60,279 bases of DNA from Snodgrassella alvi. Lineage in GTDB: Bacteria > Pseudomonadota > Gammaproteobacteria > Burkholderiales > Neisseriaceae. The position numbers and the translations under genes were made by a program. The first letter of the stretch is position 1. Each line of letters opens with the position of its first letter. The notes under the pieces were generated by a model. The model was given only the letters and a program-made list of their open reading frames with translations, did no database searches and was not told the origin of the DNA. The stretch lies in NCBI RefSeq assembly GCF_002777425.1, contig NZ_MDVC01000058.1:1-60279 (forward strand), written 5' to 3'. This document shows, one piece after another, positions 511 through 59,950 of this stretch.

Positions 511-3500
511 TTGAATAAAATATATCGTGCGATATGGAATGAATCCACTCACACTTGGGTGGCTGCTTCCGAATTGGCTAAGAATAAAACCAAAGCAAAT
601 ACTGTTTCTGGCCAGACTGTAAAGTCATCGCTATTAGGTAAATTTGGCATTAATGCCTTTAAGATGGGGCTGCTTGCCTCGGTTGTGAATATGGCGTTGG
701 CCATTCCGAATGTTTATGCTGCCGGTCGGGCAGGTATACATGCGGATCGATTGATTGGTAGTAATACATCAAATGGCGGTACTAGGTATGCAAGTATTAA
801 TGCAATTAGTATGACTGGAGATAATAATGTTTGCGGTGCAGATAATATTAAATACCGTTCCGGACTTAGTTCCAGCTCTGGCTTGGATCCGATAGATGAA
901 TATTGGCGTTTTGCAACAAATTACAAATTTGTTTCTGGAAAGAAAGAATATCACCCATATGGTAAAACAGAGGCACCAGAAGAGTGGGAGGCGAGAGAGA
1001 TTACTACTGGTAATTCAGGCTATCAAGGTGCGCTCACAGGCGGGGATTCCAATAAGCCAGCAAAGGCCTATGGTATTAATTCGTTTGCTCTTGGCTGCCG
1101 GTCATATGCAACAGGTAATCATAGTCTTGCTTTTGGTACCAATGCTACCAGTACAGCCGGCGGTGCGCAGGCTTTTGGTATAGCTGCGCTGGCTAGCGGA
1201 CGTGCTTCCAATGCCATCGGTGTTGTTTCACAGGCTACAGGTGTATCCGCTGTCGCTTTAGGTTCTGTAGCCACCTCTGACGGGGTAGGAAGCGTAGCTC
1301 TTGGCTTGCAGGCAAAAGCTGCTGCTGACGGTACTGTAGCGGTTGGGGTGCAATCTCAGGCTGGGCAGGGGTCAGTAGATTCTGCTGTAGCCATCGGTAA
1401 TAACAATAAAGCCACTGGTAAGCAAAGCATCAGCATTGGTTCCGATAATGAGGTTTCAGGTGTGCAATCAATTGCTATAGGCAATTCTGCAACAGCCACC
1501 ACATACAATCAAGATAACAGTGAAGTGAAAGATCGGGCTATAGACAATACCCGTATCAGCGGCAACTATACTCTGTCTCTGGGTAATAGTAATGCTGGTT
1601 CCGGCGAATTTATTACAGCTAACAATACCGCTATATTTGGTAACAAAAATACCATCAACAACGCTATTGATAATGCACACATTATTGGTAACCGCAATAC
1701 AGTGGGTATTGCTGGAACAACCTCTACCGCCAACTACGCAACCATAATTGGTAATAATGCCAGTGTCAGTGCATCCTATGGGCTGGCATTGGGTAATCAT
1801 ACCTCTGTCAGTGCCACTAATGCGATTGCTGTGGGCACTGAGGCTCAGGCCACAGCTGCTGGTGCGGTTGCTCTGGGTGCAGGTTCGCTTGCCAATACCG
1901 CCGGTGCGGTAGCTGTAGGAAACGTAGAGGAGGGTATTACACGCCAGATAACGGATGTTGCGGCTGGTACAGAGGCTACTGATGCAGCCAATGTTGCCCA
2001 GTTAAAGAAACTGGCTTCATCTGTTGCAAACCGTGTGAATAATGTGTCGGTCAACATTGATAATACTCTTACTGCTATTGGTAGTGTTTCCACTTCAATA
2101 CACGTTGATGCAAATAAGCTTGGTGCAAAGATTGATGCTGTTTCAGCAAAGGCCAATCCTCAATTAACAGACTTAAATACTGCTATATCTAACCAAGAGA
2201 GAGTAATATCTGAAAGCATTACTCCGTTCCAACAGGATGCTTTGCTGTATCAGGATGGTGTTTATAATGCTAGCAGGGCAGGCGGCGAAAGCACGAATAA
2301 AATAATCAATGTGGCGGCTTCCGCAAATCTTTCTGCTGATTCTACCGATATGGTGAATGGCGGGCAGCTATATACCACTAATAGCAATATTAGCAGTCTG
2401 TCCAGTTCTTTTGCTAGCAGTTTTACTGATTTGTCCAATTCGCTGTCTACTACAGTTAACTACGATCCGAAGCAAATATCGACTAGCCTGGATGTGGCCG
2501 AAAAAAAAGTTTCTGCCTTGAAAACGGATGCTTTGCAATGGGATGAGGGTGATAAAGCATTCAGTGCCGAACACGGTGATGATGGAAATCAGAAAATTAT
2601 TAATGTCGAGGCTGGTGATATTTCCAGTTTGGCATCAACTGATGCAGTAACCGGTGGCCAGTACTATGAACTGAGTACATCAATAAGTACCAGTGTAGAT
2701 GCGCTTACAACATCTGCTCTGAGTACTGCTGGTGAGATGAAGAACGGTATTACTGAATTACCGAAACAAGTGTTGCAGCTTGCAGGCGACAGTTTCAATG
2801 CTCAGCGGGATAAAATAGATCAGAAAATTACTGGTGTTGCAAACGCTACGTTGGGAAGTGCTTCAAGCGATGCTGTTACTGGCGCACAGTTATATTCTAC
2901 AAATAATTCTGTGAACGCATTAACAACTTCAACTGATGCTGGTCTGTCTAATTTTGCTTCACAGTTGACCCAATACTCTGAGGATACCCTGAAAAGTGGG
3001 GCTAATCTTGTAAATGGCGTTGGTACAGGTATTGGTGCTTTGCAGAGTGATGCTTTACAGTGGGATAACACAGTTAAGGCATACAGTGCCAATCATGGTA
3101 GTGATGGAAAACAGAGAATTACCAATGTGGCCGATGGCCGTGTGGTGTCAGGTTCAACTGATGCGATAAATGTTGGCCAGATTTATTCGTTCTCGCTTTC
3201 TACTGTTTCAGAAATACAGAAAGTGAGTAATGGTCTAAATGGTTTATCTATAGAAGAGATTAACAAACACACAACTGCCATTGATTCAGGCCTCAAAACC
3301 GCCAACGAGAATATAACGGCATTAAAACAAAATGCATTGCAATGGAAGGGCAAAGCCTATGATGCCAGCGATGTTAATGGCAATAAAGGGCGCATTACTA
3401 ATGTGGCAGAAGGAAGTACAGCGCAAAATTCCTCAGATGCCGTAATTGGTGCACAGCTATACAGTACGAATAGCCAGATAACTTCGCTCTCTACTGCATT

Positions 3501-6375
3501 CGTTGACAGAATCTCTGATTTTGCACAGGCAACTACATCCGAGCTGGGCAATCTCTCTAATGTATTGCAAAACGCTTCTGTTCCAAGTCTGGATGATTTG
3601 TCTGCTAAGACAGATGCGCGCCTGAACGAAATGAACAACAAGATTCCTGCGCTACAGCAGAATGCATTGCAATGGGATGAGAGTGCTAAAGCATTCAGTG
3701 CCAGACACGGTGGTGATGGAAATCAGAAAATTACTAATGTTGCTGATGGTAGGGTGGACAAAGGGTCAAAAGATGCAGTAACAGGTAATCAGTTGTATAA
3801 CACCAATACAGCCATCAGTAATCTGGGTGACAAAGTAGCCGCCGAGGCGAGCAGTTTAACCAACTCTCTGAGTACCATATCCAATGAAAGCATAGCTAAC
3901 TTAACCAATTCATTGCAACAAACCAATACCAAACTGACAAGTCTGTCTGAAACTACAGCAGCAAAATTGGGTAGTATCAGCAACGATATATCCAACTTGC
4001 AGGACAATGCACTGCAATGGAAGGCTAATCCTGATGGTACGGGCATGTATGATGCCAGCCATGGCGGTAAGGCTCAGCTTATTACCCATGTCCGCGCTGG
4101 TGCTGTGGCTAAAGATTCTACTGATGCCATTAACGGCAGCCAGCTCTTTAGCTTGTCCAGCTCCACCGCAACAGGTTTGAGCAGCCTGTCGACCAGTCTG
4201 GAGAACCTTACCGAAAACCAGTCGGGCAGCCTGTCCAGCGCTATTGCTGGTAGTCTGAGTGCTATCTCTGACAAGCTAGGCGTAATTGATCGCGATGTGA
4301 CTGCATTGCAGAAGAATGCATTGCAATGGAACAGTACCAATGGTACTGAAGGTGTCTTTGATGCAACCCGTGGAGGCAAATCTCAGCAACTAACCGGTAT
4401 TGCCAATGGCACAATCAGTGAAACTTCAACTGATGCCATCAACGGTATGCAGATGCACAGCCTGTCAACGGCAACCTCATCTAGTCTGAGCAGTCTGTCG
4501 ACCAGTCTGGATAGTACTACTCAGAATCTGACGGTATTACAGCAGAATGCAATGCAGTGGAACGATTCACTGAAAGCTTATGATGCCAGCCATAATATTA
4601 ATGGTGAAGTTGTGGCACAGCGGATTACCAATGTGGCTGCCGGCCAGAACGATACCGATGCGGTTAATTTCAGCCAGCTTTCAAGTCTGTCCAGCTCTAC
4701 TTCATCCGGTCTGAGCAGTTTGTCGACAGTAGTTTCAACGGCAGTGACTACTGAAATCGGTAACATCTCTAACTCTCTGTCTAGCGGCTACTCAGGTCTG
4801 TCAGATAGCCTGAGTACAACAAATGATAGACTGGACAAGCTGGTGAGCAACACCAACACCCGCATAGACAGTCTGTCTACCGGTTATGTGGAAATGCACG
4901 ACAGTGTGGCTAAACTGAAAGAGGATAGCCTGAACAACCTGAGATGGAATAGTGAGTATAATGGAGGTGAAGGCGCATTTGATGCCAGCAAACCAGGCAG
5001 CCTCACTCGTGCTTCTGAACCAGGCAAGATTGTTAATGTGGCCAATGGCGATATTAGTGAGCATTCGCATGATGCAGTAACAGGCGGACAGTTGTTTACT
5101 GTGAAAAGTGATCTGGCCAGTTTGTCTACCGCTACTTCAAACAGTTTGTCTTCGATAAACAATATGCTGCAAACAGGTGGGATTAGTAGCAGTATTTCTA
5201 ACCTGCAGGTAGATATTTCTAGCCTGCAGAAAAATGTATTGCAGTGGAAGAGCTCTCTGGGAGCTTATGATGCCAGCTATGCTGGTAAAGCACAGCGGAT
5301 TACCAATGTGGCTGATGCCCAGAATGATACCGATGCAATCAATTATGGTCAGTTGTTGACTGTGAAAAACGGACTGGATAGTCTGTCTACGACAGTAAGT
5401 AAATTATCTACAGGCGGCGGTATTTCACAAGACGCTTTCGCAATTAGCAACCAGATTTCCTCCCAAGACGCTCTGACTAGTTTGTCAACTGCACTTGGCA
5501 ACCAGATTGCCTCTATAGCATCAGGTCTGGGTGCTTCGTACGATCCGTCTACAGGCGTTAATTTGAATGGATATGATATTCATAAGCCGGATGGTAGTAT
5601 AGAGAAAGTAACTAATGTGCCTGATGCACTGCAAAAGATACAGGATTATGGTACGAAGTATGCGAAAGTCAACTCCCCGAACGGAATAGCAGCAATTGCA
5701 TCGGGTGATGATTCGATAGCAGTAGGTGGTGGAGCGGTTGCCGCTAGTAATTCGGCCATTGCGATAGGTGCTTCAGCTTCAGCAAATAAAGTGGCAGACA
5801 AAGGTATAGCGTTGGGCAACGGTGCACAGGTAACGGTGGCTGGAGGTGTTGCTCTGGGAGCGGGCTCAGTAGCGAGCAGGGAAGCCGGAATAGTAGGTTA
5901 TATACCGGAAACGGCAACCGAGGAGCAGAGAAACGCTATCGTAGCCACGCGGAGTAAGGATTATGGTGCGGTATCTGTGGGTGATGAAGATAGTAGACAA
6001 TACCGTCAGATAACCGGTGTTGCTGCGGGTAGTCTGGACACGGATGCTGTGAATGTGGCTCAGCTTAAAGCTGTGGATAATCAGATTGGCAAGGTAAATG
6101 AATATGTTAACCAGCTAAGTGATAATATTCACCATGTTGAGCGTCGTGCCTATTCAGGTACGGCAATGGCCATGGCTTTATCCGGTGCTTATCTGCCATC
6201 CCTGAACTCTGGTGAACAGACTGTGGGTCTCGGTGTGGGTGCATATCGCAGCTATGGTGCCGTTGGTGTAAACTATAAGGCGGCAAGTAAAAACGGTAAG
6301 GTTACATGGGGCGCAGGTGTTTCCACTACTGGTAAGGAGGTAGCTGTTAACTCAGCACTTGGCTTTAAGTGGTAA
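511..6375 (+). CDS. YadA-type trimeric autotransporter adhesin
   Basis: A type Vc secreted surface adhesin of 1954 residues, expected to trimerise in the outer membrane and mediate attachment. It starts with TTG, supported by AGGAG 8 nt upstream and by the N-terminal extended signal peptide region (MNKIYRAIWN at 1-10). A hydrophobic signal core ends in NVYA near residue 70. YadA-like head repeats (SVALG, SIAIG, AVAVG patterns) occupy about 184-470, followed by a neck (DAANVAQL). The stalk, about 575-1700, is built of around ten modules, each with an [N/D]ALQW-like segment, a YDASHG-like segment, and an ITNVA...STDAVNGxQL neck. Ser/Thr-rich SLST/SSLS coiled coil separates the modules. A second small head lies at about 1725-1790. 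The C-terminal YadA anchor starts near 1880 (AYSGTAMAMALSGAY) and ends in the Phe-Lys-Trp typical of outer-membrane barrels. Three DUF2827 genes follow. The ligand is unknown. Confidence 0.96.
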   Translation: MNKIYRAIWNESTHTWVAASELAKNKTKANTVSGQTVKSSLLGKFGINAFKMGLLASVVNMALAIPNVYAAGRAGIHADRLIGSNTSNGGTRYASINAISMTGDNNVCGADNIKYRSGLSSSSGLDPIDEYWRFATNYKFVSGKKEYHPYGKTEAPEEWEAREITTGNSGYQGALTGGDSNKPAKAYGINSFALGCRSYATGNHSLAFGTNATSTAGGAQAFGIAALASGRASNAIGVVSQATGVSAVALGSVATSDGVGSVALGLQAKAAADGTVAVGVQSQAGQGSVDSAVAIGNNNKATGKQSISIGSDNEVSGVQSIAIGNSATATTYNQDNSEVKDRAIDNTRISGNYTLSLGNSNAGSGEFITANNTAIFGNKNTINNAIDNAHIIGNRNTVGIAGTTSTANYATIIGNNASVSASYGLALGNHTSVSATNAIAVGTEAQATAAGAVALGAGSLANTAGAVAVGNVEEGITRQITDVAAGTEATDAANVAQLKKLASSVANRVNNVSVNIDNTLTAIGSVSTSIHVDANKLGAKIDAVSAKANPQLTDLNTAISNQERVISESITPFQQDALLYQDGVYNASRAGGESTNKIINVAASANLSADSTDMVNGGQLYTTNSNISSLSSSFASSFTDLSNSLSTTVNYDPKQISTSLDVAEKKVSALKTDALQWDEGDKAFSAEHGDDGNQKIINVEAGDISSLASTDAVTGGQYYELSTSISTSVDALTTSALSTAGEMKNGITELPKQVLQLAGDSFNAQRDKIDQKITGVANATLGSASSDAVTGAQLYSTNNSVNALTTSTDAGLSNFASQLTQYSEDTLKSGANLVNGVGTGIGALQSDALQWDNTVKAYSANHGSDGKQRITNVADGRVVSGSTDAINVGQIYSFSLSTVSEIQKVSNGLNGLSIEEINKHTTAIDSGLKTANENITALKQNALQWKGKAYDASDVNGNKGRITNVAEGSTAQNSSDAVIGAQLYSTNSQITSLSTAFVDRISDFAQATTSELGNLSNVLQNASVPSLDDLSAKTDARLNEMNNKIPALQQNALQWDESAKAFSARHGGDGNQKITNVADGRVDKGSKDAVTGNQLYNTNTAISNLGDKVAAEASSLTNSLSTISNESIANLTNSLQQTNTKLTSLSETTAAKLGSISNDISNLQDNALQWKANPDGTGMYDASHGGKAQLITHVRAGAVAKDSTDAINGSQLFSLSSSTATGLSSLSTSLENLTENQSGSLSSAIAGSLSAISDKLGVIDRDVTALQKNALQWNSTNGTEGVFDATRGGKSQQLTGIANGTISETSTDAINGMQMHSLSTATSSSLSSLSTSLDSTTQNLTVLQQNAMQWNDSLKAYDASHNINGEVVAQRITNVAAGQNDTDAVNFSQLSSLSSSTSSGLSSLSTVVSTAVTTEIGNISNSLSSGYSGLSDSLSTTNDRLDKLVSNTNTRIDSLSTGYVEMHDSVAKLKEDSLNNLRWNSEYNGGEGAFDASKPGSLTRASEPGKIVNVANGDISEHSHDAVTGGQLFTVKSDLASLSTATSNSLSSINNMLQTGGISSSISNLQVDISSLQKNVLQWKSSLGAYDASYAGKAQRITNVADAQNDTDAINYGQLLTVKNGLDSLSTTVSKLSTGGGISQDAFAISNQISSQDALTSLSTALGNQIASIASGLGASYDPSTGVNLNGYDIHKPDGSIEKVTNVPDALQKIQDYGTKYAKVNSPNGIAAIASGDDSIAVGGGAVAASNSAIAIGASASANKVADKGIALGNGAQVTVAGGVALGAGSVASREAGIVGYIPETATEEQRNAIVATRSKDYGAVSVGDEDSRQYRQITGVAAGSLDTDAVNVAQLKAVDNQIGKVNEYVNQLSDNIHHVERRAYSGTAMAMALSGAYLPSLNSGEQTVGLGVGAYRSYGAVGVNYKAASKNGKVTWGAGVSTTGKEVAVNSALGFKW

Positions 6376-6391
6376 AAAATTCTGACTGAGC

Positions 6392-6431
6392 AGACTTCTG
6401 GTCTTCCACTGTGAAGCCAGAAGTCTTATTT
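6392..6431 (+). terminator. Hairpin after the adhesin gene
   Basis: The arms AGACTTCTGG (6392-6401) and CCAGAAGTCT (6417-6426) are perfectly complementary, with an inner CTTC/GAAG pairing, and are followed by a T-rich run. It should end or attenuate adhesin transcription just before the DUF2827 genes. Confidence 0.7.
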
Positions 6432-6472
6432 GTTTATTAGTAATAGCATTTTTACTCATAATACGGATTTGT

Positions 6473-7618
6473 ATGCGCATCGGTATTTCTGTTATCACTC
6501 ATGCCAACCAGAATATCTGGGAGAATGGCATGGGTCAGAATATTATATTTTTGGCTCAGAGTCTGAAGGCTATCCCGTTTGTTAAATCGGTTGATCTGAT
6601 TAATGTGGGCGGGCAGCCGGGTATGGCCGAACAGATTGATTTAAATTTGTTTGATTTGCGCTTAATGTCAGAGCAGGAAGCTGGTGATGCTTTCGATGTC
6701 ATTATTGAGCTGGCAGGTGCATTGAGTCCACAATGGCTGGCTTTACAGCGGGCTCGTGGTAAAAAGGTGGTGTATTATTGTGTTGGCCAGCCTTATGTAG
6801 GATTGGTGGAATATAATGTATTTGAAAAACCGACCAATTTTCCGCCAGTAGACCGTTCTGATGAGGTGTGGCTGTTACCAAAAGATAAGGCTTATATCCC
6901 CATACTGCGTACAATGTACCGCCGTCCGGTACATGTTACACCCTATCTGTGGGATCCGATATTTGTATCCAGACGCAAACAGGAAATCGGTGAGCTTGGT
7001 TTCCATTTTGGCTGGCGCAGCAATTTGCATGATGGTATTCAGACACCTTTGAATGTAGCTATTTTCGAACCCAATATTTCTGTTGTGAAAACGTCATCCA
7101 TTCCGATGCTGGGCTGTGATGAGGCTTATCGCCAGCAGCCGCAGTCAGTAGGTATGATGCATGTGCTCAATACGTTGCATATGAAAGACCATATGACGAT
7201 GCTGTATCTGGCCAATTCACTGAATCTGGTTAAGGAGCACAAAGCCTGCTTTTATGGTCGCCATGATATAGCCGGTTTTATGGCGCAGCATGCCAATGCT
7301 GTGGTTTCGCATCAATGGTGTAATGACCAGAACTATCTGTATCTGGATACACTGTATGGTGATTATCCGCTGATTCACAATTCGCCATGGTTAAAAGAAT
7401 TTGGTGCTGGCTATTATTATCCGGATTTTGATGCACGTGAAGCAGGCAAACAATTGATTCAGGCCTGGCAGTATCATGAGGAAAATCTGGGTAGTCAGCG
7501 TCAGGCCGCGCAGGCATTGTTTAAGGCTACGGCGCCTCTGGCTGAAACCAATATCGCTGCCCATGCACAACTGTTATCTAATCTGTGTGCTGATCGTCCA
7601 GAATTATTAAGAGGTTAA
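6473..7618 (+). CDS. DUF2827 family protein, paralog 1 (putative GT-B glycosyltransferase)
   Basis: A 381-residue soluble protein with no signal peptide, the first of three tandem paralogs. Motifs shared with the next two are ENGxxQNxxFLAxxL (about 17-31), an EPN at 199-201 followed by VKTS, SHQW at 279-282 and YPLIHNS at 298-304, followed by a GYYYPDFD-like segment. The arrangement of an N-terminal Rossmann-like half and a C-terminal half with a conserved acidic/glycine-rich segment recalls GT-B glycosyltransferases, but no donor or acceptor can be read from sequence. It begins 97 nt after the adhesin stop, behind a hairpin, and is separated from the next gene by only 3 nt. Family assignment to DUF2827 is from recollection of the motif pattern; the enzymatic role is inference. 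Confidence 0.85.
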   Translation: MRIGISVITHANQNIWENGMGQNIIFLAQSLKAIPFVKSVDLINVGGQPGMAEQIDLNLFDLRLMSEQEAGDAFDVIIELAGALSPQWLALQRARGKKVVYYCVGQPYVGLVEYNVFEKPTNFPPVDRSDEVWLLPKDKAYIPILRTMYRRPVHVTPYLWDPIFVSRRKQEIGELGFHFGWRSNLHDGIQTPLNVAIFEPNISVVKTSSIPMLGCDEAYRQQPQSVGMMHVLNTLHMKDHMTMLYLANSLNLVKEHKACFYGRHDIAGFMAQHANAVVSHQWCNDQNYLYLDTLYGDYPLIHNSPWLKEFGAGYYYPDFDAREAGKQLIQAWQYHEENLGSQRQAAQALFKATAPLAETNIAAHAQLLSNLCADRPELLRG

Positions 7619-7621
7619 CCC

Positions 7622-8752
7622 ATGTCGTCGGTGTCTTCACTTCGGGTAGGTGTTTCGATTTATGTGCGCAAAGGAGCACAGTCGCTGTGGGAAAACGGCA
7701 TTTTTCAGAATTGCCTGTTTCTGGCGATGTTGTTACAGAAATCACCGATTGTGGGTAATGTGGTGCTGGTGGCTGGTTCCGGCGATGGGGATATGCAGGA
7801 TGCAATGAACTTTCTGCAGGATTCGCCAGTACCGGTGATTGATATGGCCAGTGCCATGAATGAGCTGGATGTCATGATTGAAATGAGCGCCCAGCTGGCC
7901 AGAGAATGGATGATAAATTTCAAGGCCAAAGGTGGTAAAGTAGTTAGCATGCGGGTGGGTAATGATTATGTGATTGATATTGAACGTATGCTGTTCGATA
8001 AGCCATCTGCCTTGCTGATTACGGGTGCACCATATGATGAGGTATGGACCTTACCTGAATACGAAAAAAGCTGTATGCCATACTTCGCCAGTACATTTCG
8101 TGCTCCGGTACGGCTTATGCCGCATTTATGGAGCCCGGTTATTCTCGATCGCGCCTGTGAAAACCTGCCTGAAAGCGAACAGTTTGCCTATCAGCCTGGC
8201 CGCAGACGCTGGCGTATTGGTATGTTTGAACCCAATATGTGTATGGTGAAAACTAGTTATATGCCTATGCTGGTATGTGAAAACGCACATCGGCTCAATC
8301 CTGATTTTATCGAGCATATTTACGCCTGTAATACCATGAATCTGAAAAAGCAAAATGCTTTCAATCTGTTTGCCCAGAGTCTGGACATTGTGCGGCATGG
8401 CTTGACTTCGTTTGAGGGTCGTTATCCGATCTGGCAGGTGGTATCCCGTTATTGTGAGGCAATTGTTTGTCATCAGTGGGAAAATGCGCAGAATTATATT
8501 TATTATGAAGCTTTATATGGTGGCTATCCGCTGATTCACAATTCACACCTGATTGGTGATTGCGGATATCGCTATCATGATTTTGACTGTGAAGAAGGTG
8601 GGCAGAAACTGGTGGATGCATATAAGATGCATGATGAAAATCTGGCCAGTTACCGTGAGCGGGCAAATGTCTTTCTGGCAACACTGGATCCTGAAGCGGA
8701 AAGTAATGTCCGCTGTTATACTGAGGCACTTGAATCCCTGTTTAAAGCCTAG
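7622..8752 (+). CDS. DUF2827 family protein, paralog 2 (putative GT-B glycosyltransferase)
   Basis: A 376-residue paralog of the preceding protein, starting 3 nt after its stop, so the two are almost certainly co-transcribed and translationally linked. It keeps the same landmarks: ENGIFQNCLFLAMLL near the N-terminus, EPNMCMVKTSYMPML in the middle, CHQWENAQNYIYYEALYGG and YPLIHNS near the C-terminus. There is no signal peptide or membrane segment, so it should act in the cytoplasm. Divergence among the three copies is well beyond recent duplication, suggesting separate specificities. Function is not established; sugar transfer to the neighbouring adhesin is a hypothesis. Confidence 0.85.
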   Translation: MSSVSSLRVGVSIYVRKGAQSLWENGIFQNCLFLAMLLQKSPIVGNVVLVAGSGDGDMQDAMNFLQDSPVPVIDMASAMNELDVMIEMSAQLAREWMINFKAKGGKVVSMRVGNDYVIDIERMLFDKPSALLITGAPYDEVWTLPEYEKSCMPYFASTFRAPVRLMPHLWSPVILDRACENLPESEQFAYQPGRRRWRIGMFEPNMCMVKTSYMPMLVCENAHRLNPDFIEHIYACNTMNLKKQNAFNLFAQSLDIVRHGLTSFEGRYPIWQVVSRYCEAIVCHQWENAQNYIYYEALYGGYPLIHNSHLIGDCGYRYHDFDCEEGGQKLVDAYKMHDENLASYRERANVFLATLDPEAESNVRCYTEALESLFKA

Positions 8753-8829
8753 GTTACACTGATTTAGTTTACTGCTTGGTATCAGGTATATATAAAGCCA
8801 GTCTGCAATAATATATTTCTGTTGAAATC

Positions 8830-10005
8830 ATGAATTTATCTAATAATCCGGATTTAATTTCCAGCCATACGCCAGCACGTTTGCGTATTGGGATTACCAT
8901 TGGTCTGAATCATCCTAAAGAAACGCTGTGGAATAATGGCATTAAACAGAATGCTGTTTTTCTTGCTGAAGCACTGAAAAATTGCCCTAATGTAGACTCT
9001 GTGGTGTTGGTAAACACCACTGATATACCGATTACCTCAAGTTTTCCATGGGATTTGCAGATATGGCCAACCAAAAGTTTCTTTGAGGCCAAAGATCAGG
9101 TTGATGTACTGATTGAGCTAGGTGGACAGATTAGTGCTGCGCAGACGGCCTATATCAAGGATAGAGGCGTACATCTGATTTCTTATTGCTGTGGTGTTGA
9201 GTATATTCAGATGATGGAAGCGATTTTGTTTTCCCGCAATATGGGTGGCGCTAATCTGTTTATTAACCAGCGTTATGATGATATCTGGATGATTCCACAG
9301 GTTGCTAATTGCAGTCGGGCGTATTTTGAGGTGTTTCGTCGGCATGAGGCACGTGTGGTGCCGTTTGTATGGAGCCCGGTATTTCTGCTTCAGAAGACCG
9401 CAGCCATGCCATTTCAGGGCTTATGGCAGGAGCCGGATCCGCGCAATGGCTGGCGTTTGTCAGTAATGGAGCCGAATATCAATGTAGTGAAGTTCTGTCT
9501 GTATCCGATTCTGATTGCTGAAGTGGCATATCGCAGTGCACCTGAAGCCATTAATATCCTGCAGGTTTGCAATACTTTGCCAATGGCGCAGAAATGCATG
9601 GAATTCATTGCGCTGATGAATCAGCTGGATATCGTGAAAGGTCACAAGTCAGTATTTCTGGGTCGTTATGATACGCCGACATTTCTGGCTACCAATACTG
9701 ACGCAGTAATTTCACATCAGTGGGAAAATCCGCTTAACTACTTCTATCTGGAAGTGTGCTGGCAGGGCTATCCTCTGATTCACAATGCCGAGCTGATTTC
9801 CGATCTGGGCTATTATTACGCTGGCAATGATGTGCAGGCGGGAGCCAAACAGTTGCTTGCAGCGATGAGCAATCACGCTTATAACGCAGCTCAATATAGG
9901 CACGACCAGCGTCAGCAGATTGCCCGTTTCCTGCCGAATAATCCCGATCTGGTGGCCAGCTATTCTGCTTTGCTGACAGAAGTAGTGGCCAGACCATTGC
10001 GCTAA
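8830..10005 (+). CDS. DUF2827 family protein, paralog 3 (putative GT-B glycosyltransferase)
   Basis: A 391-residue third paralog, 77 nt after the second. It has an extra N-terminal stretch of about 17 residues before the shared RIGITIGLN strand. Conserved landmarks are NNGIKQNAVFLAEAL, EPNINVVKFCLYPIL, SHQWENPLNYFYLEV and YPLIHNA. It is the most divergent of the three: the VKTS tetrapeptide of the other two reads VKFC here, and IHNS reads IHNA, so its specificity or activity may differ. It ends 6 nt before the convergent dehydrogenase gene, with no obvious terminator in the gap. Confidence 0.84.
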   Translation: MNLSNNPDLISSHTPARLRIGITIGLNHPKETLWNNGIKQNAVFLAEALKNCPNVDSVVLVNTTDIPITSSFPWDLQIWPTKSFFEAKDQVDVLIELGGQISAAQTAYIKDRGVHLISYCCGVEYIQMMEAILFSRNMGGANLFINQRYDDIWMIPQVANCSRAYFEVFRRHEARVVPFVWSPVFLLQKTAAMPFQGLWQEPDPRNGWRLSVMEPNINVVKFCLYPILIAEVAYRSAPEAINILQVCNTLPMAQKCMEFIALMNQLDIVKGHKSVFLGRYDTPTFLATNTDAVISHQWENPLNYFYLEVCWQGYPLIHNAELISDLGYYYAGNDVQAGAKQLLAAMSNHAYNAAQYRHDQRQQIARFLPNNPDLVASYSALLTEVVARPLR

Positions 10006-33588: not shown

Positions 33589-34233
33589 ATGAACATTGCC
33601 GATATTTCCAGACAGCGTTATACCACCAAGCATTATGATAAAACCAGAAAAATCCCGGCTGAGCAATTAACGCAATTATTCGAAGTTATCAGAAATAGCC
33701 CTTCTTCAGTAAATGCTCAACCATGGCATTTCTTTGTAGTGGATAATGATGCGGCACGTGCCAGAATCATGCCAGCAATAATGGAAATAAATCATCCACG
33801 GGTAGCAGACTCATCTCATACTCTGATATTTTGTGCCAAAACACCGCTAGATGAACAGCATTTACAAACCGTGCTAGCTCAGGAAGAAAAAGATGGCCGT
33901 TTTGGAGAAGGTGAAATCAAGGAAATGATGGATAAAGGTCGCCATTTCTTTGTAAATAAAAACAGCACTACGTCACAAGCTCAGCTCGAATGGGAAAGCA
34001 AACAGTTATATATCGTACTGGGACAGCTATTATTTGCTGCTGCCGCCATTGGCATTGATTCAACGGCGATAGAAGGTTTTGATGATGAAAAAATGGATGA
34101 TATTTTAGAATTAAAACAACAGGGTTTAAAAAGCATTCTGGTGGTAAGCCTCGGTTATCGTGCTGCTAATGACAGTAATGCCAGTCGCCCGAAATCGCGT
34201 CTGCCGATAGAGCAGATATTTACCCAGATATAA
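33589..34233 (+). CDS. Oxygen-insensitive NAD(P)H nitroreductase family protein (NfsB-like)
   Basis: A 214-residue FMN enzyme that reduces nitro compounds or quinones by two-electron transfer. The N-terminus MNIADISRQRYTTKHYDK carries the FMN phosphate-binding RYTTK. SPSSVNAQPWHFFVVD and GIDSTAIEGFDDEKMDDIL are typical of NfsB-like proteins. The start at 33589 has AGGAA at 33577-33581; the frame is open upstream to 33478 but that extension is AT-rich and non-homologous. A single gene followed by a hairpin. Confidence 0.93.
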   Translation: MNIADISRQRYTTKHYDKTRKIPAEQLTQLFEVIRNSPSSVNAQPWHFFVVDNDAARARIMPAIMEINHPRVADSSHTLIFCAKTPLDEQHLQTVLAQEEKDGRFGEGEIKEMMDKGRHFFVNKNSTTSQAQLEWESKQLYIVLGQLLFAAAAIGIDSTAIEGFDDEKMDDILELKQQGLKSILVVSLGYRAANDSNASRPKSRLPIEQIFTQI

Positions 34234-34255
34234 TTTATTTTCTGATTTTACAAAT

Positions 34256-34295
34256 AAAATAGATTCTTTTAGTTAACTGAAAGAATCTATTTTGA
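34256..34295 (+). terminator. Terminator after the nitroreductase gene
   Basis: AAAATAGATTCTTT (34256-34269) and AAAGAATCTATTTT (34280-34293) are perfect 14-bp arms. Confidence 0.85.
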
Positions 34296-34880
34296 TATAA
34301 GGCTATTTGGTATTAGCAGTAGCCACACCAATAATATTTACATACTTAAATGATAATATTTGGTGTTAACAGATAGTATAACCCGCTAGATTTGATACAA
34401 AATTTATTTGTATTTAGCCTCGTAATCCTAATATTTCAACAATAACATAAACATTTTCTAATCTATATCATTGAATTTTTAATAAAAAATAGTAATTTAC
34501 TATTATCTGAATGAAGAATGTGCCAGTATCCGATAAAAGCGGTTTAATATGCCATATGCTTAATAGCTGAAGCTAAACTCTGTATATTAAGGGAAAATTT
34601 TCCCTAAAAATAGGTTTCTAAGTTAGGTTTTCAATTAATATATAAAATATCCAGTCAGCAGATTCATAATATCAAACGGCATGATTGCCCATTAGTCCAA
34701 TAAAAACTCTGCTTACAGTGAAATAAACACGAGATGAACGTTAATGTTAATTGTGAATATAAATAATTAACTCACCAAATTGTTACCGTAAGAAAAAATA
34801 CAAGAGCCCCACCTTTTTAAAATTACCGTCCTTTTTTGTGCTGTTTTATTGGTTGCTTGATACCAATTTTTTGGTTGGGC
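34296..34880. other. AT-rich region without recognisable gene
   Basis: About 600 nt with stops in all frames and no motif I can name. It adjoins two pseudogenes and is probably decayed coding DNA or spacer. Confidence 0.5.
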
Positions 34881-34889
34881 GTGAATTAT

Positions 34890-35475
34890 TTATTGACGCT
34901 ACGGTTTTCAACTAGGCAAAGTTAAGCCGTATATTCCGATAAATTCTCTTACATCAATAATTATTTGTATAATTATATCTAATACTTTTACTCAGTTAGC
35001 AAATCTGGTTGTAATTTTTATCACTCCAGCAATAGCGCTTACACTGGTATGCGATTTATCAGGTCTACAAAAAAATCTTTAGTATGTATTCTTCCTAATT
35101 TTAAGTTTCTTTCATGGTGTTGCTACAGAATCTTTAGAACGTAATGCTGTAATTATTGATTTTTATTAGATTTTTTATTAATTGTCAATTATCATTGGCT
35201 ATTTTGCTTTACGCAAACAATTTACTGTTATCGAAAATAAAGTACAAGTAAAAGCATTAATTTTAAATTCCACCATTGCTTTTATTTTGACATTGTTGCT
35301 GGCGATAATTGCTTTCTTTCTCAATTCATATTGTTGGCAATGGTTTAAAAATAGAATTTATTCATTAACAGAACAAGAAAGCGATAGCTTATGGGATATA
35401 TTACTTCTTCTTCTTTTATGAGCTATTGGCTGGATAATGGCTCGTAAAACAGTAAAGGTATTTTTTAGTCAATAA
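34890..35475 (+). pseudogene. Remnant of a multi-pass membrane protein gene
   Basis: Two open fragments on the plus strand look like pieces of one protein. The first (about 34894-35080) reads RYGFQLGKVKPYIPI followed by a hydrophobic run with LANLVVIFITPAIAL. The second (35182-35421) reads IIIGYFALRKQFTVIENK, then a hydrophobic helix IAFILTLLLAIIAFFL and NSYCWQWFKNRIYSLTEQE. It then meets TGA and continues in frame AIGWIMARKTVKVFFSQ to a stop at 35475. Several stops and frameshifts between fragments show decay. Family not identified. Confidence 0.6.
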
Positions 35476-35673
35476 AATAATTTATTCTGTTGAGCCAGCA
35501 ACAGAATAGAATTTGTACCAATTCAATAAAATGATTTTGAATTTGTTAAATTGCCATTAATCAAGTTTAATTTTGATGGCTATTAACGGAGATACTTTTA
35601 TATCGAGCGCAACGAGTGTTGCACCATAACAATAATCCTCATCACCCTCATTATTACCAAATTACCCACCATC

Positions 35674-36214
35674 TCAAATCTTTCGGATTAAGCTCCTTTT
35701 TCCATCGTAACAGACATTATTTTTGTCTTTAGCGTAGTGGCGGGTACGGTAATGGCTAGTAACGATTTCAAACATTTCAGGATCTAAATCATCCAGTACA
35801 ATCAGTTTAATTCGAATAATATTTATAAATATGATTTTTATCTTTGAAATGATTTTTCTTTGCCACAAATTGAGCACTATTAGGAGCAACATAAGGTAAT
35901 TTGTGCTTTTCATAAAAAGTGGTTTTTGCCTTTCACCATATTCTTAGCTAAACCTGAGATAATGCCATCTTTCTTAAACATTAAGCTATTTACATCGGCA
36001 GCCAATTTGTCGGCTCAGATAAGTGTTAGGTTGAAACATAGCAGACCTGGTCATCAATAATATAATGTCCAGTATCTAATGGGTTGAATTTGATCATTAG
36101 AAGAATATGTAATCCAAAGTCCCCTCTTGGCAAAAACAGTTTGCTCAAAAAGGAATATTGTCGCTATAACAAAAATAAAACAAATAATCCAAAAAAGTGC
36201 TTTATTTTTTGCAT
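35674..36214 (-). pseudogene. Broken DKNYY-type repeat protein gene
   Basis: Read on the minus strand, pieces in different frames give a signal-like start MQKIKHFFGLFVLFLL, then GHYIIDDQVCYV. These are followed by DKLAADVNSLMFKKDGIISG, AKNMVKGKNHFYEKHK, KKNHFKDKNHIYKYY and finally LDPEMFEIVTSHYRTRHYAK and DKNNVCYDGK. The repeated DKN-hydrophobic-YY pattern is that of the DKNYY family, secreted repeat proteins of unknown function. At least four frame changes or stops are needed to join them, so the gene is dead. Confidence 0.65.
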
Positions 36215-36596
36215 GGATAAATCCTCTGTATCTAATGAAGAATTTCCAATCCTTATTGTTATCCTCGTTTGAGGCACAGGCACCAAATATTGCCATGTTT
36301 CAATTTATCATCACTCGTCTTAGAGTAGATTAATGTATAGCATGAGTTAATCTATTTCCAGTAAATTGGATGGTATATTGCGTTATAATTATATGAAATT
36401 TAATATTTTATAGCTCAGAGTTTATATCCATTTCTCTACAATAAAGCATTGGGCTTTAAGCTTATTGATAATGAAAATATAACTACTAAGCCGATTATTT
36501 CAAAATGGCATGCTACGTATTAATTAAAATGCATAAAAATTTATATCGTCTTTCAATACAAATATATTTTTTGGCATGGTTTTGAATCAGTAAACA
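36215..36596. other. AT-rich intergenic region
   Basis: No gene or strong signal seen between the DKNYY remnant and the cyclo-ligase gene; stops are frequent in all frames. Confidence 0.5.
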
Positions 36597-54198: not shown

Positions 54199-54218
54199 CA
54201 TTCACGACTCAGCAACCT

Positions 54219-54246
54219 AAAAAGCACGCGTGAAAGCGTGCTTTTT
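54219..54246 (+). terminator. Terminator after the DUF3472-like gene
   Basis: AAAAAGCACGC and GCGTGCTTTTT are perfect 11-bp arms around GTGAAA. Confidence 0.93.
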
Positions 54247-54347
54247 AATTATTTAATTTATCAGTACACGTAGTCTTATTCAGAACCATAATTACAGTCA
54301 AAAGAAAGTATTGAATCAAGGGAAATAATATAAAATTGAATTTGCAC

Positions 54348-54575
54348 TTAAAAATTATTTATAACCATAAAGATAACGATACAAATACAAATTAGGGCAG
54401 CTAATATCCCCATTTCCCAAAGCAGCCCAATATAGAAACCACTCATTGCAGAAACGACAATACCAAATAAAACTTTATTTCTTTATTTAAAGTGCGACTG
54501 ATACAGAAAAGCCGAAAAACCGATACTAAATGGAGTCAAAAGCAGCCGGTAATGACTGTGGCGAAAGAAAAAGCG
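54348..54575 (-). pseudogene. Remnant of a small membrane protein gene
   Basis: One minus-strand frame reads FFRHSHYRLLLTPFSIGFSA, then FLYQSHFK, stop, RNKVLFGIVVSAMSGFYIGL, then LWEMGILAALICICIVIFMV and INNF before a stop at 54348. The protein-like hydrophobic pattern continues on both sides of an internal TAA. This suggests a gene broken by a nonsense change, or a short real ORF after it. Family unknown. Confidence 0.4.
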
Positions 54576-54670
54576 CGAAGATAAAAGGCAAAGGGGGTAA
54601 AAAGTGCTAAAAATAAAATCTTAAAAAACAGTCATATGATGAAATAATGAAAAATAAAAGGGGGAAGTAG

Positions 54671-54699
54671 TTGACATGATTTTGAGTGAGGCGTATAGT
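54671..54699 (+). promoter_or_regulatory. rRNA operon promoter
   Basis: Consensus TTGACA (54671-54676) and TATAGT (54694-54699) with 17-nt spacing, about 225 nt upstream of 16S. AT-rich DNA with A-tracts precedes it and may act as an UP element. Confidence 0.9.
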
Positions 54700-54769
54700 T
54701 CGCTTTCTTCGCTGATGACGCGACACGAAACGAACTAAACAGTTTAAAGTAGAACGCAGTCGAAAGCAA

Positions 54770-54781
54770 CGCTCTTTAACA
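54770..54781 (+). promoter_or_regulatory. boxA antitermination site, 16S leader
   Basis: CGCTCTTTAACA matches the rrn boxA consensus TGCTCTTTAACA in all but the first base. It loads the Nus antitermination complex. Confidence 0.85.
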
Positions 54782-54784
54782 GAA

Positions 54785-54819
54785 CAGATTACCGATAAGT
54801 GTGAGTGCGGATGAGCCTC
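54785..54819 (+). other. 16S precursor processing stem, 5-prime strand
   Basis: Complementary, with a few mismatches, to 56476-56510 after 16S. Together they form the long stem cut by RNase III to release pre-16S. Confidence 0.8.
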
Positions 54820-54923
54820 ACACTGATTCAGAGAGACGAGATATATAGACATATACTTGTCAATAACTTTGAAGCAGACCAGTGATTTCGGAGGGGACTT
54901 CGAGATTGCAACAAGCTAAGATT

Positions 54924-56465
<1,542 letters not shown>

Positions 56466-56475
56466 GAGAAAAGAA

Positions 56476-56510
56476 GAGGCTGATTCGCATTCACACTTAT
56501 CGGTAAACTG
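56476..56510 (+). other. 16S precursor processing stem, 3-prime strand
   Basis: Pairs with 54785-54819 in the leader, closing the 16S processing stem. Confidence 0.8.
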
Positions 56511-56539
56511 AAAAGATGCGAGAAGAGACTGAATAAACT

Positions 56540-56616
<77 letters not shown>

Positions 56617-56631
56617 CATATTTAAGGACGC

Positions 56632-56707
56632 GGGGGCATAGCTCAGTTGGTAGAGCACCTGCTTTGCAAGCAGGGGGTCATCGGTTCGATCCCGTTTGCC
56701 TCCACCA
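56632..56707 (+). tRNA. tRNA-Ala (anticodon TGC)
   Basis: A 76-nt tRNA with anticodon loop CTTTGCAAG, T-loop GGTTCGATCC and encoded CCA. It is the second spacer tRNA, in the usual Ile-Ala order. Confidence 0.97.
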
Positions 56708-56815
56708 CGACTCTGTAGGAAGAGGGAAGTTAAATCAGGATACTTTGGAAATTAAAGGTAGTTTAGTCTGAGTACAGACGAAGCAGAAGCTAGCTTTAAT
56801 TTGCGAAGTAACGCA

Positions 56816-56827
56816 TCGATCTTTAAC
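56816..56827 (+). promoter_or_regulatory. boxA antitermination site, 23S leader
   Basis: CGATCTTTAACA resembles the boxA consensus and lies in the spacer before 23S, as in other bacteria. Confidence 0.7.
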
Positions 56828-57060
56828 AAATTGGAAAGCCGAAATCAACAAACAAAGATTGAGGCACAGGAATCGGAATCTGGAAACAGATGAAGAAGAA
56901 AGTGCTGAAAGAATTGGGTGATGATTGTATCGCTGAACAACGAAAACAAAAGGCGTTGTTCAGACAACCAAAGCAGTAAGCTTTATGAGAGTAAAGGCCT
57001 TAGTCATATTCACTAGTCAACGGTGGAGATGGCGAAGTCAAGAGGTTCTTGAAATGATAG

Positions 57061-59950
<2,890 letters not shown>

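Follow-up and report, generated by a model that had tools for sequence, protein, structure and literature searches.

Why do three related genes of the DUF2827 family follow the gene of a trimeric autotransporter adhesin (TAA) in Snodgrassella alvi? The locus occupies positions 511 to 10,005 of contig NZ_MDVC01000058.1; the window analysed here is this one entire contig (60,279 nucleotides), from a 2.58 Mb genome in 115 contigs. The original prediction placed four open reading frames (ORFs) on a single strand, and the ORF check recovered all of them at those positions. We consider it likely that DUF2827 proteins are cytoplasmic glycosyltransferases of GT-B fold that are dedicated to TAAs and act chiefly at Ser-Leu-Ser-Thr (SLST) motifs of the stalk, with subfamilies D1 and D2 as the core and D3 as an accessory. 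The features are:

511..6375, + strand: TAA of 1954 residues (ORF with ESPR, YadA head repeats, coiled stalk and C-terminal anchor)
2311..5610, + strand: part of the stalk with all 13 SLST by motif count, the proposed acceptor region
6211..6372, + strand: YadA-like membrane anchor, a weak match under the Pfam cut-off
6392..6426, + strand: terminator-like hairpin between the adhesin and D1 (14 pairs, then T-rich), of presumed function
6473..7618, + strand: DUF2827 subfamily D1, 381 residues, putative GT-B glycosyltransferase (fold by homology to D2 and D3)
7622..8752, + strand: DUF2827 subfamily D2, 376 residues, putative GT-B glycosyltransferase (profile and fold model; K210 and N288-x7-E296-x4-G301-x-P303)
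8830..10005, + strand: DUF2827 subfamily D3, 391 residues, putative GT-B glycosyltransferase (profile and fold model)

DUF2827 genes beside trimeric adhesins

The PF10933 profile matches D1, D2 and D3 over their full lengths (E 3e-111, 2e-143 and 4e-135; 372, 478 and 451 bits against a cut-off of 25), and a profile search of the own genome gave exactly three matches, all in this trio. In the window's own family, 12 of 83 genomes carry DUF2827; a phylum sample has 6 of 398 and an order sample 8 of 399 (7 over the cut-off), the own genome being counted in. In the family around genome G324, 86 of 299 genomes are positive (85 over the cut-off). The family, phylum and order surveys gave 19 distinct over-cut-off genomes, which are not independent, 11 being from one genus. 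A TAA lies within 1.5 kb of DUF2827 in 14 of them (10 with a TAA stalk profile) and within 6 kb in 16, the longer distances being 2.3 kb in G322 and 5.3 kb in G474; the three genomes that fail are G170, G469 and G476. Using a chance rate of 2–6%, which is estimated rather than measured, and these non-independent genomes, the binomial p for 14 of 19 is <1e-13.

A second set consisted of 80 named loci, the best 80 of 271 relatives, some of which stop at a contig edge. A TAA-profile ORF is present within 1.5 kb in 56 and anywhere in the locus in 61; once ORFs with 4 or more SLST, or with an ESPR-like start, are counted too, the numbers are 65 and 69, respectively. The predicted association of DUF2827 with adhesins across genomes was thereby borne out, with exceptions, and the adjacency extends across several families and into a second order of the class. 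Adhesin pieces of G575 and G727 match YadA_anchor over the cut-off. The adhesins of G358 and G451 have no YadA domain in Pfam, where ESPR is their only match among type V families; we regard them as TAAs because they match EmaA and Ata models partially (E 1e-31, 1e-9; 7e-11, 4e-8; all under the curated cut-offs) and possess YadA-like head and neck motifs.

The stalk motif follows the enzyme as well. In the 299-genome sample, the SLST profile (E 1e-6) matched 71 genomes, YadA_stalk 184 and DUF2827 86, four of the last being without a stalk match. The 184 YadA_stalk genomes comprise 68 with both SLST and DUF2827, 14 with DUF2827 only, 3 with SLST only and 99 with neither (Fisher 3e-32). With stratification by genus, which leaves kinship inside a genus, the Cochran-Mantel-Haenszel value is 6e-15; in genus g20, SLST is present in 10 of 10 genomes with DUF2827 against 1 of 26 without. 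The idea that the SLST stalk is the target has thus gained support, as stalks and enzymes co-occur by genome and also inside genera. One SLST-only genome, G890, has a TAA with 14 SLST (L206:8796-11396) and no DUF2827 in the genome or in the 20 kb around the adhesin, an exception that might involve a different modifying enzyme.

Could the proteins instead decorate surface polysaccharide or lipopolysaccharide, the adhesin and glycan genes merely sharing surface-structure islands? We consider this unlikely. Some clusters do contain a GT34-like protein, tetratricopeptide repeat proteins, GT2/GT7C-like enzymes or methyltransferase-like proteins; such neighbours fit a glycan-building locus and equally a glycan going elsewhere. 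Two trios (L210 and L211, genomes G882 and G900) lie among GT34-like, GT2/GT7C-like and methyltransferase-like genes with no TAA in 20 kb, and the G170 trio (L128) likewise has none in 20 kb. However, a shared island alone would not cause the motif content of the adhesin to track DUF2827 even inside genera, and the adjacency is repeated in several families and another order.

Some of these loci show further particulars. Genome G468 has two TAA genes of ∼3680 codons with similar N-termini in opposite orientation, ∼10 kb apart (L126:2024-13087, − strand; L127:3347-14380, + strand), and the DUF2827 trio is 3' of only one of them; such an opposed pair could permit inversion or gene conversion. At L088:12350-13138, the start of a D3 gene passes into SLST repeats and then into a TAA C-terminus in another frame, which would be either a fusion of the two neighbours by deletion or a misassembly. 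A small, apparently secreted protein of ∼200 residues without a Pfam match (type L097:12339-12962) is found near the clusters in 14 of the 80 loci, and a small ORF 3' of the L131 cluster (6791-7264) is DUF4019. In G575 and G727, an Omp85-family protein, possibly an assembly partner, is encoded directly 3' of the DUF2827 pair and TAA (L139:8021-9208, − strand; L140:4492-5709). G755 has one weak DUF2827 match (E 5.4e-4, under the cut-off), and its locus L141 gave nothing more.

Subfamilies, fold and putative active site

D2 and D3 are both 36% identical to D1, and sequence comparison confirmed that the three paralogs share the ENG-xxQN, EPN, SHQW and YPLIHN motifs named in the original prediction. 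Among six Snodgrassella-titled records, D1 identity is 86–98% in five and 74% in the sixth. In a draft FastTree tree of 100 sequences (from 248 gathered, thinned at 78% identity; long branches flagged), the window proteins fall into three distinct groups of 39, 31 and 23 members for D1, D2 and D3, with 7 sequences outside; each group spans Neisseriaceae, Comamonadaceae and Burkholderiaceae. The 80 named loci show the order D1-D2-D3 in 39 cases, D1-D2 in 26, a reverse D3 ahead of D1-D2 in 7 and another arrangement in 8; the assignment excluded sequences with short profile matches, so that a locus given as D1 alone could still hold an incomplete partner. The wide-ranging, separate groups and the recurring order argue for an old cassette rather than a recent duplication.

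D3 has WNNG for WENG and QGYP for GGYP. These substitutions had been read as altered motifs; they are present, but they are usual in the D3 subfamily (88% and 96%), and D3 is not a decayed copy. The division of labour proposed for the three paralogs stands as far as three anciently separate subfamilies in a mostly fixed order can carry it.

The models of D2 and D3 contain two Rossmann-like domains each and superpose on solved GT-B structures, in agreement with the predicted GT-B look of the paralogs; D1 is assigned by homology only. Transferases head the match lists of both models, the closest fold being that of GT4 enzymes (BshA, MshA, TarM), and GtfA/GtfB and SdgB are listed too. In the D2 model, N288-x7-E296-x4-G301-x-P303 lies after strand 280–282 and across helix 292–300, and K210 is in the loop after strand 197–201. 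K210 is 100% conserved in D1–D3, N288 is 98–100% conserved, and position 296 is Glu or Asp. E-x7-E is the GT4 motif; in the alignment, two GT4-type proteins of the own genome have E-x7-E followed by x4-G. Judged from the residue pattern, the D2 spacing fits a nucleotide-sugar site. DUF2827 has N-x7-[E/D], and because the canonical first Glu is Asn, we do not file the family under GT4. PF10933 was the sole curated profile over its cut-off, and NCBIfam and PHROGs searches gave no known glycosyltransferase family; the link to known glycosyltransferases is made by fold alone, as modelled.

A GT-B fold may also serve another activity: DUF2827 proteins could be epimerase-like, or could assist Ser/Thr-rich stalks ahead of export as a chaperone or scaffold that adds no sugar. 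The fold matches include non-hydrolysing UDP-GlcNAc 2-epimerases, and the first Glu of the GT4 motif is replaced. We nevertheless find this quite improbable: transferases top both match lists, a set of polar residues is conserved across all three subfamilies, and three parallel paralogs would suit transferases better than chaperones.

The stalk as candidate acceptor

The window adhesin starts with TTG, which we take as the right start codon because AGGAG lies upstream and the ESPR match begins at residue 1. Its Pfam domains are ESPR (residues 1–39), YadA_head and 13 YadA_stalk stretches; residues 1901–1954 match YadA_anchor with 17.7 bits (cut-off 22.7), at the position expected for the anchor. 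With ESPR and YadA head and stalk repeats, the protein belongs to type Vc. It contains 13 SLST (residues 644 to 1657), against 0.2 expected by shuffling and a maximum of 3 in 2000 shuffles; among DUF2827-adjacent TAAs, which have up to 215 SLST each, 13 in 1954 residues is at the low end. Two further TAAs on other contigs of the own genome also carry SLST (7.1 and 5.2 per 1000 residues), so that the DUF2827 enzymes could act in trans.

Adjacent TAAs differ from control TAAs in composition. We compared 60 adjacent TAAs of 300 residues or more, each chosen for a TAA profile match or for four or more SLST, with 21 control TAAs from 20 regions, which were taken from the strongest stalk matches of DUF-negative genomes. 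The median SLST content is 36.7 versus 0 per 1000 residues, a figure that is partly selected, and median Ser+Thr is 40.0 versus 21.5%; the 50 adjacent TAAs picked by TAA profile alone gave 34.9 and 39.0%, respectively. In the DUF-negative Snodgrassella genome G472, neither of two TAA pieces has SLST.

The motif is in register with the coiled coil. Up to a distance of 60, 3115 of 3234 SLST spacings (96%) equal 7n or 7n+4, the heptad and hendecad steps, whereas free spacing would give 29%. The 1482 segments spaced by 7n have a hydrophobic residue at heptad position 2 in 68% and at position 6 in 99%, and Ser or Thr occupies positions 1, 3, 4 and 7 in 96, 67, 97 and 66%, the motif itself contributing to positions 1–4. 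Should the core consist of positions 2 and 6, the hydroxyls would point outward in a regular array.

DUF2827 branches from other lineages have other partners. G358, from a different order within the class, and G451, from a different genus within the family, have one DUF2827 match each, encoded immediately 3' of a TAA whose heptads are of the SSATAAD or SSATAAG type; these TAAs have 33 and 39% Ser+Thr and no SLST, while five other TAAs of the two genomes have 17–23% Ser+Thr. In G575 and G727, the DUF2827 pair lies beside TAA pieces with 42–43% Ser+Thr and VSTSL-type repeats (1 and 8 SLST). Different enzyme branches therefore appear to face different Ser-rich repeats, which, at the level of repeat sequences, is the best hint of enzyme–substrate co-evolution. 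That DUF2827 proteins N-glycosylate the adhesin at N-x-S/T is very improbable: HMW1C-type cytoplasmic enzymes can modify TAAs (PMC8151025; this and the papers below are cited from the part of their text available) and NSNVT repeats occur in some stalks, but sequons are depleted rather than enriched in adjacent TAAs (median 13.5 versus 20.4 per 1000 residues in the controls), are rare in the two SSATAAG-type TAAs (6.2 in G358 and 2.8 in G451) and no HMW1C-family profile in Pfam or NCBIfam matched DUF2827.

Because DUF2827 proteins look like glycosyltransferases and co-occur with SLST adhesins, they probably coat the stalk with sugars. The enzymes would add sugars to Ser/Thr of the stalk in the cytoplasm, ahead of Sec export, by putative O-linkage; modification would fall on the outward-facing side of the coiled coil, chiefly at SLST motifs that keep step with the heptad/hendecad repeat. 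The core pair would be D1 and D2, with D3 as an accessory enzyme for another acceptor or donor.

Several observations weigh against this reading. The adhesin had been called Ser/Thr-rich; it has an excess of SLST, but its overall Ser+Thr content, 21.8%, is not unusual for a TAA (control median 21.5%). At E 1e-6, 14 of the TAA- and DUF-positive genomes have no SLST match, three SLST-positive genomes lack DUF2827, and genus g13 is split just 10 of 19 against 2 of 19. One TAA piece each from DUF-positive G469, only 60% complete, and G476 is without SLST. Eleven of the 80 named loci have no adhesin signal; no TAA was found near the clusters of G170 and G469, or in the sequenced flanks of G476 (just 1.4 kb of contig upstream), G882 and G900. 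The epimerases 7vyy and 3dzc are among the GT-B matches, and neither GT4 nor any PDB protein could be linked to DUF2827 by sequence: hhalign of DUF2827 against one and two GT4-type proteins of the own genome gave probabilities of just 0.1 and 1.2%, and PDB searches with the D1 sequence and the family profile gave no match.

The gaps between the genes are 97 bases (adhesin-D1), 3 bases (D1-D2) and 77 bases (D2-D3). The 97-base gap has a folding z of -3.95 against shuffles; its hairpin is kept in 8 of 8 aligned Snodgrassella sequences, and a simple terminator scan does not list it. Given the hairpin and the gap sizes, the enzymes may be produced by read-through, in smaller amounts than the adhesin; as a sequence element, the hairpin could set the adhesin-to-enzyme mRNA ratio in an attenuator-like manner.

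Elsewhere in the window, 34234-36596 is an AT-rich stretch of ∼2.4 kb (bin 34001-36000 has 31% GC); it contains no ORF of more than 80 residues and gives no Rfam match at gathering score. The 54200-59150 stretch has few ORFs and contains tRNA-Ile and tRNA-Ala at 56540-56707; it is probably a ribosomal RNA operon.

Comparison with known glycosylation systems

Like DUF2827 as proposed here, the BAHT heptosyltransferases (Aah/TibC on AIDA-I, Ag43 and TibA), which require iron, are adhesin-linked enzymes that glycosylate an autotransporter at Ser/Thr inside the cytoplasm (PMC8151025). Different from the BAHTs, whose partners are classical autotransporters, DUF2827 has trimeric partners and forms a cassette of up to three paralogs that match PF10933 only. 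The iron ligands of BAHTs are Cys residues; Cys is absent from the invariant or nearly invariant columns of 87 DUF2827 sequences. HMW1C-like N-glycosyltransferases (NGT, GT41) are likewise dedicated or lone cytoplasmic enzymes of type V adhesins, trimeric ones included (PMC8151025); NGT, however, modifies Asn in NXS/T, the sequon depleted in DUF2827 partners, and DUF2827 is a bare GT-B of just ∼376 residues.

In Gram-positive bacteria, GtfA/GtfB (serine-rich repeat adhesins) and SdgB (Ser-Asp repeats) are GT-B enzymes that O-glycosylate repetitive Ser-rich regions. DUF2827 resembles them in fold, as its models match them, and in its repetitive Ser-rich candidate targets; it differs in its shorter chain (376 versus ∼490–506 residues), in its Gram-negative type Vc partner and in giving no sequence match to them in the PDB searches. 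With GT4, it shares the closest fold and the x7-E-x4-G spacing; it is set apart by the Asn in 98–100% of D1–D3 and by the lack of an hhalign homology signal to the own-genome GT4-type proteins.

The SLST motif itself has been reported in Burkholderia TAAs, namely BoaA/BoaB (PMC2955633), BMA1027 orthologs (PMC4021183) and BCAM2418 (PMC7142374). In the available text of these papers, words in 'glycosyl-' are absent from the first two and 'glycosyltransferase' from the third, and none names DUF2827. In the literature searched, which mostly excluded subscription papers, no paper joining DUF2827 to adhesins was found; the family is named once, in a table row 'uronic acid pathway' (PMC12828279).

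Taken together, the finding stands, stronger than first stated. If true, it assigns a function to a Pfam family that has had none and explains the long-noted SLST repeats of Burkholderia adhesins; its definite prediction is testable in S. alvi, a bee-gut symbiont with published gene knockout (PMC11389375). A bolder version, which we hold tentatively and with some doubt, is that DUF2827 is an unrecognised class for TAA O-glycosylation whose subfamilies act as an assembly line building a short glycan on register-locked SLST, that the stalk is a mucin-like sugar-clad rod, and that subfamily and repeat type (SLST versus SSATAAG) co-evolved. Two cytoplasmic mechanisms, NGT and BAHT, are named for type V proteins in the available part of a 2021 review (PMC8151025); beside these two, DUF2827 would open a third route, as a candidate for a third autotransporter glycosyltransferase class whose acceptor motif is predicted.
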